Shown here piece after piece: positions 34,097 through 51,800 of a stretch of DNA of 64,000 nucleotides. The DNA comes from an uncultured Selenomonadales bacterium (GTDB lineage: Bacteria; Bacillota; Negativicutes; Selenomonadales; Selenomonadaceae), in contig OMWN01000067.1 in the NCBI GenBank assembly GCA_900314765.1, forward strand, positions 1 to 64,000, read 5' to 3'. The translations under genes were made by a program, and so were the position numbers. The stretch's first letter is position 1, and every line of letters starts with the position of its first letter. The notes under the pieces were generated by a model. That model saw only the letters and a list, made by a program, of their open reading frames with translations, did no database searches and had not been told where the DNA came from.

Positions 34097-34415
34097 ATAA
34101 TTTAAATAAGTGCAAATCAGTGAGCAGGAAAAGTAGCTTTGTTGATTTCGTTCAGCGAGCTGGTGACCGCGAGAGCGATGGTGTGATGACCAGTCGAATA
34201 GATGAAGTGAATGGCCCTGCGAGAGTCCTTTGAAAGTCGCGTCAAATGATGCGGTGAGTAGATGGGAACGGTTGCCTCCGTTACAGGGCTAGGATATGTT
34301 AGTATCCGAAACGAGGAGACTTGAAATTCGCGCATCAGCGGATTGATTGAAGTCTCGAATTAGGGTGGCACCACGATAATATCGTCCCGGCAGTTAAACT
34401 GTCGGGACTTTTTAT
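34097..34415 (+). promoter_or_regulatory. T-box leader, predicted tRNA(Trp)-responsive
   Basis: Classic T-box layout. The GAGCAGGAAAAGTAG start of stem I is at about 34122, an apical loop region follows, and GAATGG near 34209-34214 offers UGG (34212-34214) as specifier codon. The conserved T-box AGGGTGGCACCACG is at 34362-34375, and a terminator follows. Uncharged tRNA(Trp) would pair with the specifier and antiterminator bulge and allow readthrough into trpFCBAEG. The specifier is chosen by position and downstream genes, not by a fold calculation. Confidence 0.92.
34384..34413 (+). terminator. T-box attenuator terminator
   Basis: GTCCCGGCAGT (34384-34394) pairs with ACTGTCGGGAC (34398-34408) with one G-U, followed by TTTTT. 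The 5' arm overlaps the antiterminator segment after the T-box sequence. Confidence 0.9.
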
Positions 34416-45817: not shown

Positions 45818-46177
45818 ATGTCAGAAAAAGAAAAGAAAAACCAAATCGAAGATGTCGACAATATCGATGATGACGAAGTCATAGTCGTCATGAAAGACGA
45901 GGATGGCAATGAGCTCTATTTTGCAGAAGAAATGAGACTTCTCGTCAATGACGATGAATATGCGCTGCTTGTGCCGACTGTTTCGGACGAGGAAGCAGCT
46001 GAGCATGCGCATGGCGATGAAGAATGTGAATGCGACGATGACGACGCGGCATTCTTCGCGAAAATCGTCAAAGACGAAAATGGCGAAGAAGAATACATCG
46101 AGCCAAACGACGAAGAATTCAAAGCTGTCTGCGCGGCGTATGATGAACTTGTCGATGACGAGGACAGCCAAGAGTAA
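45818..46177 (+). CDS. DUF1292 family acidic protein (YrzB-like)
   Basis: Product of 119 aa, strongly acidic. The family core EVIVVMKDEDGNELYFAEEMRLLVNDDEYALLVP is at residues about 20-55, and a His/Cys/Asp-rich stretch (HAHGDEECECDDDD) at about 66-80 could bind metal. AAAGGAGAAG precedes the ATG. It completes the ireB-ruvX-DUF1292 trio and is followed by a strong terminator. Function unknown. Confidence 0.9.
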   Translation: MSEKEKKNQIEDVDNIDDDEVIVVMKDEDGNELYFAEEMRLLVNDDEYALLVPTVSDEEAAEHAHGDEECECDDDDAAFFAKIVKDENGEEEYIEPNDEEFKAVCAAYDELVDDEDSQE

Positions 46178-46206: not shown

Positions 46207-46256
46207 AAAGCCCCCAATGGGTCGGAAATATACCGATGCCGTTGGGGGCTTTTTTA
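46207..46256 (+). terminator. strong terminator after DUF1292 gene
   Basis: AGCCCCCAA (46209-46217) pairs perfectly with TTGGGGGCT (46242-46250) and runs into T6. It marks the left boundary of the AT-rich cassette. Confidence 0.92.
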
Positions 46257-46476
46257 GTAAAATTTTGTATATCATGACGCCGTCAGGGCGTGAAAATTTA
46301 TATTTGAAAATTTTTATTATAAAGCAGGAATTAGCGTAGTGACGGCGAAATTATATAGTGTGGTCATTGTTGTGATGGTGAATAATTGATTTTACAAAGA
46401 GAGTGAAACGTTAATAGTACGATAGTTAGGAATCTTGTATTAGCTTAAGATAAACATTATGGGGGATGATTTGTGC
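46257..46476. other. AT-rich spacer, left edge of the O-acetylation cassette
   Basis: No gene is supported here. A small hairpin ACGCC-GTCA-GGGCGT lies near 46277-46291. The remainder is low-GC, and no clear promoter for the acyltransferase gene was found, although one must exist because a terminator lies upstream. Confidence 0.4.
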
Positions 46477-47516
46477 ATGAACAAAAGAATAGACGCGTTT
46501 GATATTTTGAAAGGGTTTGGAATAATATGTGTCATACTTGGGCATATGCCTGGTGATGCGTTTTTCGTGAAGGTAATAAGACATTCAGTGTTTTCGTTTC
46601 ACATGCCTTTATTTTTCCTTATAAGTGGTTATTTCCTTTCAATGAAGCATGATTATAAGGATTTTATTATTGATAAGGCCCAAAAGCTGTTGATACCTTA
46701 TTATTCGACATGTGCTGTTATCTGTGCGTTGTCTGTGCCTGTCAGCATTCTGCTGAATCAGTCTGCAAAGAACAATTTGATAAAATGGATAGGTGGTACT
46801 ATTTATGCAGGCGGTTCAGGTAGCATACACGCTGTCACCTTCATGCCAACATTTATTGGCGCAATATGGTTTCTTTGGGCATTGTTTTGGGCGTTTGCAA
46901 TAGTTAGAGCACTTTTTGATAAATTATCAGTAAATAAAGCTTTTGTTATTACGCTTATAATGTGGTTCGTGGGATGGCAGTCATCTCAAATTTTTTGGTT
47001 GCCGCTTGATATTCAAGCGGGTCTTATGGCGACGATTTATCTTTGCATAGGGTACATTGTAAGACAAAAGGATATTTTATCGAAGAAGCCAATGATGCCT
47101 TTAATTTTGTGCGGAATTGTCCTCTGGGGGGGTGCGTGTGTTTCTCAGGAATGTCAATAGTAAGAGGATACTTTAAAACGGGAATTGTGAACGTTATAGC
47201 ATCGCTTGTAGCGGTGTATATATTTTTTATGATATCAAAATGGTTTGATGAACATGTGCCGCAGACAATGACATTTCTAAAGTGGTTTGGACGAAACACG
47301 CTCATAGTACTTTGTATGCATATAATAGAATCTGACTTGTTGCCTTGGTATATGGCTCAAAACTACCTAAGTGAGATGCATGTTCCTTCTGCTATCATAT
47401 ATATAATTATCTTTGCCATGAAAATAATCATTGCAAGCCTTGGTATTTTGGTTATAAACAAATTTTCTGTTTTAAGATTTTTATTCAAAGGCGAAAAATA
47501 TAGTACTGGTAATTAA
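46477..47516 (+). pseudogene. integral membrane acyltransferase, frameshifted at a G7 run (candidate phase-off allele)
   Basis: The first frame (46477-47160) starts MNKRIDAFDILKGFGIICVI and has FSFHMPLFFLISGYF, the signature of acyltransferase-3 / fucose 4-O-acetylase-like membrane enzymes that O-acetylate surface glycans. It hits a stop 28 bases past a G7 run at 47126-47132. The -1 relative frame continues smoothly from that run through SIVRGYFKTG and several membrane helices to 47516. With eight (or five) Gs the two halves join into about 346 aa with no other defect. GGGGGA lies 10 bases before the ATG. Either an off phase, a decayed gene or a sequencing error in the run. Confidence 0.8.
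47126..47132 (+). repeat. G7 homopolymer at the frameshift point
   Basis: Seven consecutive Gs form the exact junction where the two acyltransferase frames meet. Adding one G restores the full frame (codons TGG GGG GGG TGC). Confidence 0.9.
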
Positions 47517-47560
47517 AGTACAGAGGAATTCATTTCGTTAGTAAATATATTTGAAGGGAT

Positions 47561-47591
47561 GCCATTCATAACGTTATGCATAGATGATGGC
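47561..47591. terminator. possible bidirectional terminator between convergent genes
   Basis: GCCAT (47561-47565) pairs with ATGGC (47587-47591) and encloses the perfect palindrome CATAACGTTATG (47567-47578). It lies between the convergent acyltransferase and MBOAT genes. T/A tracts are short, so efficiency is doubtful. Confidence 0.35.
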
Positions 47592-47685
47592 TTTTATACT
47601 GATTTAGTTCAAATTACTTTGATAATATCTATAAGATATGTACATTTAGAAATTCAGGGTGCAATATTAGTAAACCTTAAAAATG

Positions 47686-49086
47686 CTAAAAATTGAAATA
47701 AATGAACGGATTATATGTTGAGCTCATTGTAACGACTATAGAAAGCAGAAATATAACCGTTGCCAATAATGGCTCGCAAATATTCATTGCCTTTGTATTG
47801 TTTAGCCGATTTTTTAACATTGGAACAATCGGCGTAGAAAGAATGACCCCTAGTATCCAAACCGTTCTTCCGTTATATATGTAGTACCAAGCAGTACTGT
47901 CGAATAGTCCTGTACTACCGACGCCGATCATTGTGCCAATATAATTCATTGCATGATTGATGTCGGGTGAGCGGAACAAAGTCCAACCAATTATTATTGC
48001 CAAAAGAGCGTAGATGTGTGCTAATACGCCAATTTTTTCGGGGAAATTGGTAATTTTTTCCATCATCAATAGCACAAAATAAAATAGACCCCATAAAACG
48101 AAAGTCCAATTTGCGCCATGCCATAAGCCTGTCAGCGTCCATACTACAAACAAATTAAGGATCCAGCGTACTTTTGACACCCTGTTGCCACCCATCGGAA
48201 TATATACATAGTCGCGAAACCATGTGCCGAGCGATATATGCCATCTACGCCAGAATTCCGTAGCGCTTCGCGATATATAGGGATAGTTAAAATTTTCAGT
48301 GAAATGGAACCCAAACATTTTCCCAAGACCTATAGCCATATCGGAGTAACCAGAAAAATCAAAATATATCTGCAATGTATACGCAACAGCGCCAAGCCAT
48401 GCCGTAGCAACAGATAAGGATGTATTCGCGTCGAATATGTTATCAGCAATTTGTGCAATAAAATTTGCGAGGAGTACCTTTTTTGCCAGTCCGTATATGA
48501 ATCGCATCATGCCATCGGAGAAATCGTGAATATTCTCGTTACGAGCTGCTATCTGCTTTTCTATTTCGTCATAACGGACGATGGGGCCAGCAATGAGCTG
48601 AGGGAAAAGTGCGATATAGAGACCAACATTCAGCATATTTTTTTGAGGCGATGCTTTTCCATAGTAAATATCGAAAATATACGAAAGTATTTGAAATGTA
48701 AAAAAAGATATACCTATAGGAAGACTTATGCTCAAAAATGAGAAATCTCTTCCAAGTAATAACCCTAACTCATGCGCAGTGAATGTGAGATATTTAAAAA
48801 CAAACAAAAGACCTACGTTGAAGACTACACCAGTAACAAACCATTTTCGCCGTACCGCATTACTATGGCCTGATATTTCACCGACATGGAGCCCAATAAA
48901 CCAGCCTACAATTATCGAAAAAACCATCAAGAACACAAATATCGGTTCGCCCCATGCATAAAAAAAGAGACTCATGAAAAGAAGCAGTCTGTTGCGAAAT
49001 GTGCGAGATTTAAAAAAGGGTTGATAATAAGCTAATAACGTAATGGGTAAGAAAAGAAACAGAAATACCGTCGAAGAGAATACCAA
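47686..49086 (-). CDS. MBOAT family O-acyltransferase (AlgI/DltB-like)
   Basis: Product of 466 aa with about ten membrane helices. The N-terminus FSSTVFLFLFLPITLLAYY and internal YISRSATEFWRRWHISLGTWFRDYVYIPMGG are AlgI-type, and the catalytic His is in LTGLWHGANWTFVLWG. MBOAT proteins of this type move acetyl groups across the membrane to modify polysaccharides. TTG start at 49086 has AGGGG upstream. It lies 32 bases downstream of the DHHW gene in the same minus-strand operon. Low GC relative to the core genes around it. Confidence 0.9.
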   Translation of the reverse strand: MVFSSTVFLFLFLPITLLAYYQPFFKSRTFRNRLLLFMSLFFYAWGEPIFVFLMVFSIIVGWFIGLHVGEISGHSNAVRRKWFVTGVVFNVGLLFVFKYLTFTAHELGLLLGRDFSFLSISLPIGISFFTFQILSYIFDIYYGKASPQKNMLNVGLYIALFPQLIAGPIVRYDEIEKQIAARNENIHDFSDGMMRFIYGLAKKVLLANFIAQIADNIFDANTSLSVATAWLGAVAYTLQIYFDFSGYSDMAIGLGKMFGFHFTENFNYPYISRSATEFWRRWHISLGTWFRDYVYIPMGGNRVSKVRWILNLFVVWTLTGLWHGANWTFVLWGLFYFVLLMMEKITNFPEKIGVLAHIYALLAIIIGWTLFRSPDINHAMNYIGTMIGVGSTGLFDSTAWYYIYNGRTVWILGVILSTPIVPMLKNRLNNTKAMNICEPLLATVIFLLSIVVTMSSTYNPFIYFNF

Positions 49087-49118
49087 TAAGATCAGCCCCT
49101 ACTGTATGTGGAATTTAA

Positions 49119-50534
49119 TTATCTGAAATCAAAAAATGCTGTATGACTATTGTTTTTGTTCTCGGCAGTCAAATTCTCAATATTGTATAAAACTATTACT
49201 GTGTCAGGCTGTTCACTTTTTATATACGATAGAAGGCTGCCAGTGAAGTACCTTAAATCAATTCCTTGGATTTTTTCCATTCCAAGTATGAGAAAAGGCA
49301 TCGCGGTCAAAGCAAAAGAATCTTTTACTATGAGTGCTTTTTTCCCATCCGCTTTAAGCCTGTTTTCCATTGATGTCAAAGCGTTATCGCCGTATGAATA
49401 TGTCCAATACGAAAGGTTATTTAATCGACTCATATCATATACAACAGAAAAATCACCATCCTTGGATACGCTAAGTGATGGTATAGAGATGTGTATTGCT
49501 GTTTGAAATTTTGGGTAATACAGAGAAAAGTCATCCTTTGTTGTCATGGCAAGTGTCACTTTTTTGCCACGGCTTCCAAGGAAATTGGACGGATATGTGG
49601 TTTTGTCATATCTTATGGGGTCTAAAAGTGAAATGTCTGCGTCATATCCATAATGATTGTTCATGTAATCGAGAATTTTAGACGATGCCCATCGTGCCGT
49701 TGACGCTGTCCAATGATGATCCGTTTTATAAAATAACTGGTGTTGCTCAAATCCTGCAGTCTCTATTTCATCTCTGATGTCAATAACGTCGACACCGTAT
49801 TCTCGTAGGCCTGTTACAAATTCATCGCCGTTTTGATTTGAGAAATCAAGCTTTCCTGCGTAATCAGTTTCCGAGCGGGCTATCTTCGATGGTGCTAGCA
49901 CCATGAGAAAATTTATGCCACTCTCATGGCATTTGTCGCTGAGAGATTTTACGGCGTTTATTTTCCATGATGTATCAACGCGTGGATTGAATGACACAAG
50001 CTGTCCATCAGGCATTACCACAACACTGTTATATTCTTTTGTACGCGATATATCCCAGCATATAGTTTTTTTATAAAGATTGTAGCACTTTACACTGACC
50101 ATATAATTCCAGAAATATATATTTGTCCAATCTCCAATTTTCTTTTCGATGCCCGTGATTCTATTTTTTGTAGAATGGCAATGCGTCACAAACTCATTGA
50201 ACTTTTGTACCTCTGTACTGGTGCTTTTGTTGCTCTTCGTTTTGTTTTCTGTTGCAGAGTACTCGAATGGATATAATTTTGCCCAGTCGATATGTATCTC
50301 ATTTTTGCCACTGTCTGTTATAGCTCCGCCCAATTCTCTTAATTCGTCGCTGTCGTAGAGTATAGCTTTTGTAAGTGGGTTATAAATGTGAAGTTTTTTC
50401 ACAATCACATTCATTGTTATCGAACGCAACATTACAATTAAAAATGACATTATGAGTAGACAAGCGCAAAAAATCATCATCTTATCTTTTATCGTTGTCT
50501 TGTTATTAAAGTGTGATAGCGAAATAAATGTCAA
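49119..50534 (-). CDS. DHHW/AlgJ-like SGNH-fold O-acetylation protein
   Basis: Product of 471 aa. An N-terminal signal anchor (MMIFCACLLIMSFLIVMLRSI, near residues 19-38) precedes an extracytoplasmic domain. The YKTDHHWTASTARW motif is the DHHW/AlgX-AlgJ hallmark, and VKDSFALTAMPF near the end carries the GDS-like Ser block. Such proteins receive acetyl from a partner MBOAT and transfer it to exported glycans (alginate AlgI/AlgJ; PatA/PatB have a comparable division of labour). TTG at 50532-50534 has AGGAG at 50543-50547, 8 bases upstream; the GTG at 50543 overlaps that site. Confidence 0.85.
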   Translation of the reverse strand: MTFISLSHFNNKTTIKDKMMIFCACLLIMSFLIVMLRSITMNVIVKKLHIYNPLTKAILYDSDELRELGGAITDSGKNEIHIDWAKLYPFEYSATENKTKSNKSTSTEVQKFNEFVTHCHSTKNRITGIEKKIGDWTNIYFWNYMVSVKCYNLYKKTICWDISRTKEYNSVVVMPDGQLVSFNPRVDTSWKINAVKSLSDKCHESGINFLMVLAPSKIARSETDYAGKLDFSNQNGDEFVTGLREYGVDVIDIRDEIETAGFEQHQLFYKTDHHWTASTARWASSKILDYMNNHYGYDADISLLDPIRYDKTTYPSNFLGSRGKKVTLAMTTKDDFSLYYPKFQTAIHISIPSLSVSKDGDFSVVYDMSRLNNLSYWTYSYGDNALTSMENRLKADGKKALIVKDSFALTAMPFLILGMEKIQGIDLRYFTGSLLSYIKSEQPDTVIVLYNIENLTAENKNNSHTAFFDFR

Positions 50535-50564
50535 AAATCTCACTCCTATGATAGATTTTTAATA

Positions 50565-50593
50565 ATCATACCATGCCTGTCCCCCCCCCGCAA
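50565..50593 (-). promoter_or_regulatory. putative phase-variable promoter of the DHHW-MBOAT operon
   Basis: Read on the minus strand: TTGCGG (50593-50588), a 17-base spacer, and an extended -10 TGG-TATGAT (TATGAT at 50570-50565). Seven of the nine Gs of the run lie in the spacer and the other two in the -35. Gain or loss of one G changes the spacing to 18 or 16. Predicted transcription start is about 50558, giving a leader of about 25 bases to the TTG start. The -35 is weak (3 of 6), which an extended -10 can offset. Confidence 0.55.
50581..50589. repeat. C9/G9 homopolymer upstream of the DHHW-MBOAT operon
   Basis: Nine Cs on the plus strand (nine Gs in the operon's sense), the longest G/C run I noticed in the window. 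It lies inside AT-rich intergenic DNA between divergent genes. Confidence 0.95.
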
Positions 50594-50640
50594 GACAAAT
50601 GCTCACTAGATCTATGATTTGTTTAAAAAAATAAAATTAT

Positions 50641-50708: not shown

Positions 50709-51800
50709 TTGCCAGATTGGCTAATGAGGCAGATTGAGAAACTCTCTGACTATATCGGCGCTTTTGAGGTGCCCAGCGGCACGTTGAAGCGCAATGCTGT
50801 TATCGGCGGTGTCGTTGTCGTCATTTTCGTGTTGGGCGTCGGCGTTTCTTTGGGGCTGAGTGGTTCGGGTACGTCGGCGAATCGTGCGACAAAGCAAGTG
50901 GATGCGGATGCGCCGATTTATCTTCGCATAGAGCCGGGCATGACGGCGAGTAGCATTGGGCTGATGCTCTCTGACCACGATGTCATAGACAGCCGCTTTT
51001 GCTTTTGGCTTTTGTCGAAGCTCAATGGTGCGGATGATAAATTCAAGACGGGCATGTATCGCTTTGAGCGCAACATGAATACGCGCGATGTGCTGAATAT
51101 CATCATCAATGGTGAGACGTCGCCTATTCGCTTCACCATACCCGAGGGATTCAATGTCAACGAGATAGCAGCACGGCTCGATGAGCAGGGCATAACTTCG
51201 GCTGACGATTTCAAAAAGTCTGCCAAAAAGTTTGCGCCGTATCGCTATATGGTGGATGAGCCAAATGCGAATTACCGCGCAGAGGGTTTCCTATTCCCAG
51301 ATACATACGAAATCGATGATAATCTCCCTGCCATTTCCATTTTGCAGATGATGGCGAGGAATTTTGACAATCGATTGACTGAGGAAATGCGTGAGCGCGC
51401 GGCGTCGGAGGGACTCTCCGTATATGAGCTCGTCACGCTCGCCTCACTTGTGGAGAAGGAAGCGCGCTTCGATGAGGACAGGCCCATCATTGCACAGGTG
51501 TTTTTGAAGCGCCTCAAGATGGACATGCCGCTCCAGTCGGACACCACCATTCAGTATTTGCTGGATGCGCCAAAAGAGGATGTATCGTATGAGGACACGG
51601 AGATTGAGTCGCCATATAACACGTATCAGCATATAGGTCTCCCGCCGGGGCCAATCGCAAATCCCGGCATGGATGCCATAGAGGCCGTGCTGTATCCTGC
51701 CAATACGGATTATTTGTATTTCGTTGCCGACCGTCAGGGGCACAATCACTATTCGCGTACATACGATGAGCATCTGGAAATTGTCGACCGTGTGAGATAA
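50709..51800 (+). CDS. mltG: endolytic murein transglycosylase MltG (YceG-like)
   Basis: Product of 363 aa. One membrane helix at about 29-50, then a LysM-like subdomain (YLRIEPGMTASSIGLMLSDHDVI) and the YceG catalytic domain with ASLVEKEARFDEDRPIIAQVFLKRL; the Glu in VEKEA is the catalytic residue. MltG cleaves nascent glycan strands in the periplasm and sets their length. TTG 50709 follows GAGGCGGG. In many Firmicutes this gene follows DUF1292 directly; here the cassette separates them. Confidence 0.93.
   Translation: MPDWLMRQIEKLSDYIGAFEVPSGTLKRNAVIGGVVVVIFVLGVGVSLGLSGSGTSANRATKQVDADAPIYLRIEPGMTASSIGLMLSDHDVIDSRFCFWLLSKLNGADDKFKTGMYRFERNMNTRDVLNIIINGETSPIRFTIPEGFNVNEIAARLDEQGITSADDFKKSAKKFAPYRYMVDEPNANYRAEGFLFPDTYEIDDNLPAISILQMMARNFDNRLTEEMRERAASEGLSVYELVTLASLVEKEARFDEDRPIIAQVFLKRLKMDMPLQSDTTIQYLLDAPKEDVSYEDTEIESPYNTYQHIGLPPGPIANPGMDAIEAVLYPANTDYLYFVADRQGHNHYSRTYDEHLEIVDRVR

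Follow-up and report, generated by a model that had tools for sequence, protein, structure and literature searches.

The stretch of DNA analyzed here (the window, 64,000 nucleotides) is contig C90 of a draft genome of 2.33 Mb in 103 contigs. It contains a 4.4-kb cassette in which an acyltransferase gene faces a convergent operon encoding a DHHW/AlgX-type protein and an MBOAT protein, with one G run inside the acyltransferase gene and another one upstream of the operon. This gene layout had been put forward in an original prediction and is upheld by Pfam matches and coordinates. The features of the locus are listed below.

45818..46177, + strand: DUF1292 gene (PF06949, E=3e-9), left flank of the insertion
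46207..46252, + strand: intrinsic terminator of the RuvX-DUF1292 operon (inverted repeat I3), left edge of the cassette
46486..47160, + strand: Acyl_transf_3 acyltransferase (PF01757, E=1.3e-22), frame open into the tract, 224 aa in the assembled state
47126..47132, + strand: G7 tract, putative translational switch, out of frame in the assembled state according to frame analysis
47133..47516, + strand: remainder of the acyltransferase, an open stretch in another frame, with its stop at 47516
47686..49086, - strand: MBOAT O-acyltransferase (PF03062, E=3e-29), 466 aa, TTG start, second gene of the operon
49119..50543, - strand: DHHW/AlgX-type SGNH acyltransferase partner (PF14286, PF16822), first gene of the operon
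50565..50597, - strand: poly-G spacer promoter, TGTCTTGC-G9-ACAGGCATGG-TATGAT, a recurrent element
50581..50589, - strand: G9 tract in the promoter spacer, with 17 bp from TTGCGG to TATGAT in the assembled state
50709..51800, + strand: mltG (YceG; PF02618, E=4e-89), right flank of the insertion

The left edge of the cassette is marked by the strong terminator at 46207..46252, which folds with -33.2 kcal/mol (z=-6.6) and is followed by a T run. GC content is 37% inside the 4.4-kb cassette versus ~51% around it. Since DUF1292 and mltG are direct neighbors without the cassette in several other genera, the cassette is an insertion. It is absent from the same-genus genome G001, where a different gene lies upstream of mltG.

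The two products of the operon resemble characterized acyl-transfer proteins. For the MBOAT protein, the nearest solved structure is DltB (E=4e-19). For its partner, which matches the DHHW and ALGX families in Pfam with E=4e-13 and 2.5e-12, it is PatB1 of Bacillus cereus (E=1e-7), with which the TDHHW and KDSFA motifs align. The two genes are adjacent, the alignment of the MBOAT protein contains the WHG histidine (as WHGANW), and its partner displays the D-H-W and S motifs of SGNH proteins, all of which are expected of an MBOAT-SGNH pair. Because their nearest solved relatives are PatB1 and DltB, these proteins are likely to form an envelope acyl-transfer pair. On the evidence of protein families, they would transfer O-acetyl groups to an envelope glycan, and the genes of the cassette would probably acetylate surface sugars. 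The true start of the DHHW gene may be a TTG near 50534, because the GTG has its Shine-Dalgarno sequence too near to it. The DHHW protein gave distant matches only in the named genome collection (Treponema and Clostridia, with at most 37% identity), and a plasmid search with the MBOAT protein returned no match above 60% identity. In genus g21 (L223-L231), MBOAT and DHHW are found in one frame with a single TGA between them, and this open frame of 922-987 aa is kept in nine genomes; it may reflect either a fusion by readthrough or a coincidence of ancestry.

The frame of the acyltransferase gene stops 28 nt past G7, while the other frame is open to 47516. The size of the product depends on tract length modulo 3, with 224 aa at G7, 343 aa at G8 and 342 aa at G5. 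The predicted frames are thus interrupted exactly at G7 and continuous at the other tract lengths, so that, as judged from its reading frames, the gene would be OFF (truncated) at the assembled length. A tract of seven G is short for high-rate slippage. The best homologues in the family show ~30% identity over most of the length, with no close orthologue among them.

Long G/C runs are scarce in the window. Only two runs of at least six are present in 64 kb, G7 at 47126-47132 on the + strand and G9 at 50581-50589 on the - strand (C9 on the + strand). Counts by exact length fall from 686 runs of three to 86 of four, 12 of five and none of six, followed by one of seven and one of nine, both of which lie within the 4.4-kb cassette. 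With the window modelled as an order-2 Markov chain, 0.5 runs of at least seven and 0.01 runs of at least nine are expected; when the composition of the cassette alone was simulated, two runs of at least seven occurred in 1.5% of the simulations. Both runs are present where the original prediction had placed them. It had noticed no further long G/C homopolymer in the window, which is also correct, with 0 other runs of at least six. Elsewhere in the window, a T-box leader (RF00230, 102 bits) is found at 34111-34392 on the + strand.

Upstream of the DHHW gene, the sequence reads TTTGTCTTGC-G9-ACAGGCATGG-TATGAT, in which G9 stands between TTGCGG and TGGTATGAT, i.e., within the spacer of a putative promoter. 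The -35-like hexamer TTGCGG is weak, with three of six consensus positions, and a consensus promoter scan was uninformative, with 19 matches versus 19.8 expected and the DHHW promoter site not among them. If TTGC(GG) is taken as the -35 element, spacing is 17 bp in the window and ranges from 15 to 19 bp for G7 to G11. The 15-mer GCATTTGTCTTGCGG adjoins only two tracts in this genome, the G9 of the window and a G11 upstream of a flagellin gene. An invertible promoter (inverton) was considered and rejected, since no inverted repeat pair brackets 50565-50602.

Comparison between genomes revealed that this promoter is a recurrent element, with wwTGTCTTGC-G(7-11)-ACAnnnRTGnTATAAT as consensus. Of 189 genomes of the family, 18 contain the strict pattern, with 27 sites between them, versus 0 for a reversed-pattern control. 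Three additional families within the class have the element as well, often as G7-TACA. Conservation extends to bases outside the search pattern, including TG before TCTTGC (26-27 of 27 sites) and, at most sites, RTG ahead of the -10. Tract length, which was tallied over 38 distinct loose elements, is G7 in 11, G8 in 16, G9 in eight, G10 in one, and G11 in two. The products of the genes downstream are for the most part exported or related to the envelope, among them flagellin, DHHW, three MBOATs, ShlB, a Bac_transf sugar transferase and signal-peptide proteins. A strong N-terminal hydrophobic segment is present in 21 of these 27 products but in 13 of the 56 ORFs of the window (Fisher P=3e-6). 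In five other genomes (L221, L237, L263, L264, and L265), the MBOAT-DHHW operon lies behind this element or one of its variants, and so does the Acyl_transf_3 homologue L211. Two promoters with identical flanks differ in tract length (G7 in L115, G8 in L116), which is one pair, at another gene than that of the window, while the related pair L106/L109 has the same length (G8/G8). The genes behind the near-identical elements of L115, L116, and L126 share their first ~80 codons, after which those of L115 and L116 diverge abruptly, which suggests recombination within a gene family.

Poly-G tracts in coding and in promoter positions are also found in other genera. In two syntenic orthologous acyltransferases of another genus with a common tract position, G9 truncates the product to 112 aa (L198), while G7 leaves a frame of 353 aa open (L204); these ON/OFF orthologue states concern a different acyltransferase from that of the window. 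In sister genus g11, we found a distinct promoter architecture with perfect hexamers, in which TTGACA is followed by up to 12 nt, G(7-16) and TATAAT. Among 66 genomes, 25 have it (e.g., L276-L286 and L295-L304), at 48 sites in all (0 in the control), with spacers of 13-26 bp, most of them 17 and 19-20 bp. Since this sister genus independently places poly-G between perfect TTGACA and TATAAT hexamers, it is natural to read the tract of the window as part of a spacer. Several Acyl_transf_3 genes of g11 (L188, L189, L191, L196, L199, L203, and L209) have a G9 on conserved W-G-G-(V/A) codons near residue 58, a different site from the window G7, and in L190 these residues are kept while the tract is broken. 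These comparisons back two proposals of the original prediction: the translational tract in the acyltransferase, through the frame break at G7 together with the comparative frame data, and the transcriptional tract in the DHHW-MBOAT promoter, through recurrence of the element across genomes. On the point by which it had proposed to be judged, whether the homologous loci of relatives have runs, the outcome is divided, since five of the 22 other MBOAT/DHHW loci inspected have the promoter tract or a variant of it and 17 lack it.

The window cassette is part of a wider set of poly-G tracts in its own genome, where runs of G are found at ~30 sites when at least seven long, nine when at least eight, and four when at least nine. 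The eight other tracts of at least G8 are nearly all at or in genes for glycans, flagellins or surface proteins. The G11 mentioned above (L002 7077-7087, C71:37076-37086) lies in TTTGTCTTGC-G11-ACAAAGGATG-TATAAT upstream of a gene for a 598-aa flagellin, which is probably phase-variable and would have its promoter design in common with the acylation operon. Three genes are frameshifted at a G8, namely a second MBOAT in its 5' coding part (L004 6404-6411, C16), which is then followed by a second DHHW gene, a family-8 glycosyltransferase (GT8; L009 4255-4262, C99), and a long repetitive surface protein (L007 4611-4618, C94). Together with the window acyltransferase, this makes four genes whose frame breaks exactly at G7 or G8 and becomes whole when the tract length differs by one. 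A fifth gene with a tract, for a membrane protein, is whole at G7. Other tracts are placed differently. At 2.1 kb from the MBOAT G8, a G7 (L004 4292-4298, C16) separates TTTACG from TATTAT upstream of a gene for an exported protein. Another G9 (L001 4607-4615, C23) follows a TATAAT box and makes up one hairpin arm in the 5' leader of a gene for a second flagellin (918 aa); it may act on the structure of this leader and not on the spacing of a promoter. A G9 that abuts the Shine-Dalgarno sequence of an NDP-sugar epimerase in a polysaccharide cluster (L003 6407-6415, C74) is possibly a translation-initiation switch. Several G7 runs were set aside because they are part of a dispersed hairpin repeat, CCTCCCCAATGGGGGGGCAAACATGCC. 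A dispersed intergenic hairpin repeat, CCTCCCCAATGGGGGGGCAAACATGCCAGTGGCATGTTTGC, is found in C94, C31, C57, C58, C64, C67, and C80 (L007, L014, L016-L019, and L022) and gives rise to several G7 runs of this genome. Two claims of the original prediction have to be revised in view of this set. The presence of both tracts in one cassette is less striking than supposed, since the same genome holds many such tracts elsewhere, and the four acetylation states it had proposed are too few, given the promoter copy before the flagellin gene and the G8 in the second MBOAT paired with a second DHHW. For the acylation genes alone, counting the second MBOAT locus, there would be at least eight states if the tracts are independent.

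Comparison between genomes gives good support to phase variation by poly-G slippage: tracts, frames, a conserved variable-spacer promoter and an exported-gene bias are directly apparent, and related genomes differ in tract length and in frame. We consider it most likely that the two G runs of the cassette switch its genes on and off at random. In the acyltransferase gene, the length of G7 would shift by slipped-strand mispairing and, depending on its value modulo 3, yield either the 343-aa enzyme or a truncated product, the latter being the predicted OFF state of the assembly. G9 would sit in the spacer of a sigma-A promoter that has TTGC(GG) as its -35-like hexamer and TGnTATGAT as an extended -10. 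The addition or removal of a G would change spacing within the 15-19 bp range, moving DHHW-MBOAT transcription up or down, and the operon is predicted to be ON at the assembled 17 bp. We infer that slippage occurs within one population or clone and that transcription of this operon depends on spacing. The low-GC cassette would then be, in our view with good confidence, a module for surface acylation that has been acquired and has two contingency switches of the simple-sequence type (G7 and G9), and its promoter would be one copy of a class-wide module found before many surface genes. Spacing alone gives no account of the strictly conserved TGTC box. A broader proposal, which we regard as tentative and rather doubtful, is that TGTCTTGC-Gn-ACAnnnRTGnTATAAT is a Negativicutes module copied or re-evolved before unrelated surface genes (for flagellin, acylation operons, two-partner secretion and exported proteins) and read with a dedicated TGTCTT-box factor, so that one stochastic tunable-spacer system would govern the cell surface.

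The conserved box is also what a fixed operator would predict, in which some regulator of surface genes binds TGTC...GACA half-sites round a G-rich center, expression is deterministic, and poly-G is recognized rather than mutable. TGTC indeed hardly varies, a GACA mirrors it in most cases, G7-T preserves the modal distance in other families, as do A-G7 variants, and a few members have the same length with mixed sequence, e.g., GATGAGGAG. However, the length ranges from 7 to 11 and differs in the L115/L116 pair despite identical flanks, many members have lost the right arm (TACA, GCAG, GACG), sister-genus promoters have poly-G without TGTC, and coding tracts of this very genome act as frameshift switches, all of which makes a fixed operator unlikely. 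A looser form of it, in which a NadR-like regulator reads spacing in addition to slippage, is possible, and there is a precedent in NadR at nadA, a regulator that reads spacing (PMC2791445).

Slippage of the two cassette tracts has also to be weighed against more trivial origins. The acyltransferase might be decaying or mis-assembled, with the break at G7 reflecting a pseudogene or a homopolymer sequencing error, a view that is favored by this being a single genome, a draft in 103 contigs, and by the lack of a close orthologue. We find it improbable, even more so than a fixed operator, because both frames of the gene are open with their sole break at the tract, three more genes of this genome break exactly at G8, and an acyltransferase in an independent genome is likewise broken at its tract (L198). 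A general homopolymer error is unlikely, since 19 A/T runs of at least seven sit inside intact ORFs of the window. As for G runs that would have arisen by chance, without function, in a low-complexity acquired region, the frequency of such pairs in the cassette-composition simulations is not extreme when taken alone. Chance could explain G7 by itself, but it is contradicted for G9, whose promoter context recurs across genera and before homologous operons with 0 control matches, and we give it very little credence for the cassette as a whole.

These findings suggest that a large group of animal-associated anaerobes, the diderm Firmicutes, might have a contingency system based on poly-G that compares with the ones in Neisseria and Campylobacter. 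If so, a standardized phase-variable promoter recognizable by sequence would allow a genome-wide catalogue of switching surface genes, and its natural series would be material for how spacer length tunes transcription. Literature searches that combined phase variation with Negativicutes, Selenomonas or Veillonella, or used the sequence of the element, yielded no description of SSR phase variation in these organisms. The family-wide promoter module is likewise absent from the literature searched, whereas the slippage mechanism is of a known kind, similar to those of porA and oafA, since spacer homopolymers, phase-variable lipooligosaccharide acetylation and poly-G tracts for flagellin glycans are all on record.

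In Neisseria, porA, fetA, and opc have a homopolymer between their -35 and -10 (PMC2791445, citing van der Ende 1995). The window promoter resembles them in having a spacer homopolymer before a surface gene, whose length would set the spacing of the hexamers. It differs in its conserved box (TGTCTTGC ... ACAnnnRTGn), which is common to unrelated genes, genera and families, in its host lineage, which is a diderm Firmicutes class as judged by gene content and relatives, and in that switching is here predicted from sequence. Phase-variable O-acetylation of lipooligosaccharide is known for oafA of Haemophilus influenzae (reviewed in PMC11868660). The oafA product is an Acyl_transf_3-type acetyltransferase, and the window acyltransferase is alike in its type and in that a coding repeat would turn it ON or OFF. 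While oafA has a tetranucleotide repeat as its switch, the repeat here is a G tract, and an unrelated acylation pair under a promoter tract is adjacent to it. Campylobacter jejuni has a poly-G phasome, including Cj1295 of the flagellin glycan (PMC3068675; PMC6321876). Genome-wide G tracts in genes for surface glycans and the flagellum, and switching by frameshift, are features in common with that phasome. Campylobacter tracts are mainly intragenic, whereas many of the tracts described here are in promoter spacers of one design. Finally, an MBOAT protein with a DHHW/AlgX-domain partner in one operon is the arrangement of PatA/PatB, AlgI/AlgJ-AlgX, and DltB/DltD, from which the window operon departs in having the DHHW gene first and a promoter with a poly-G tract.
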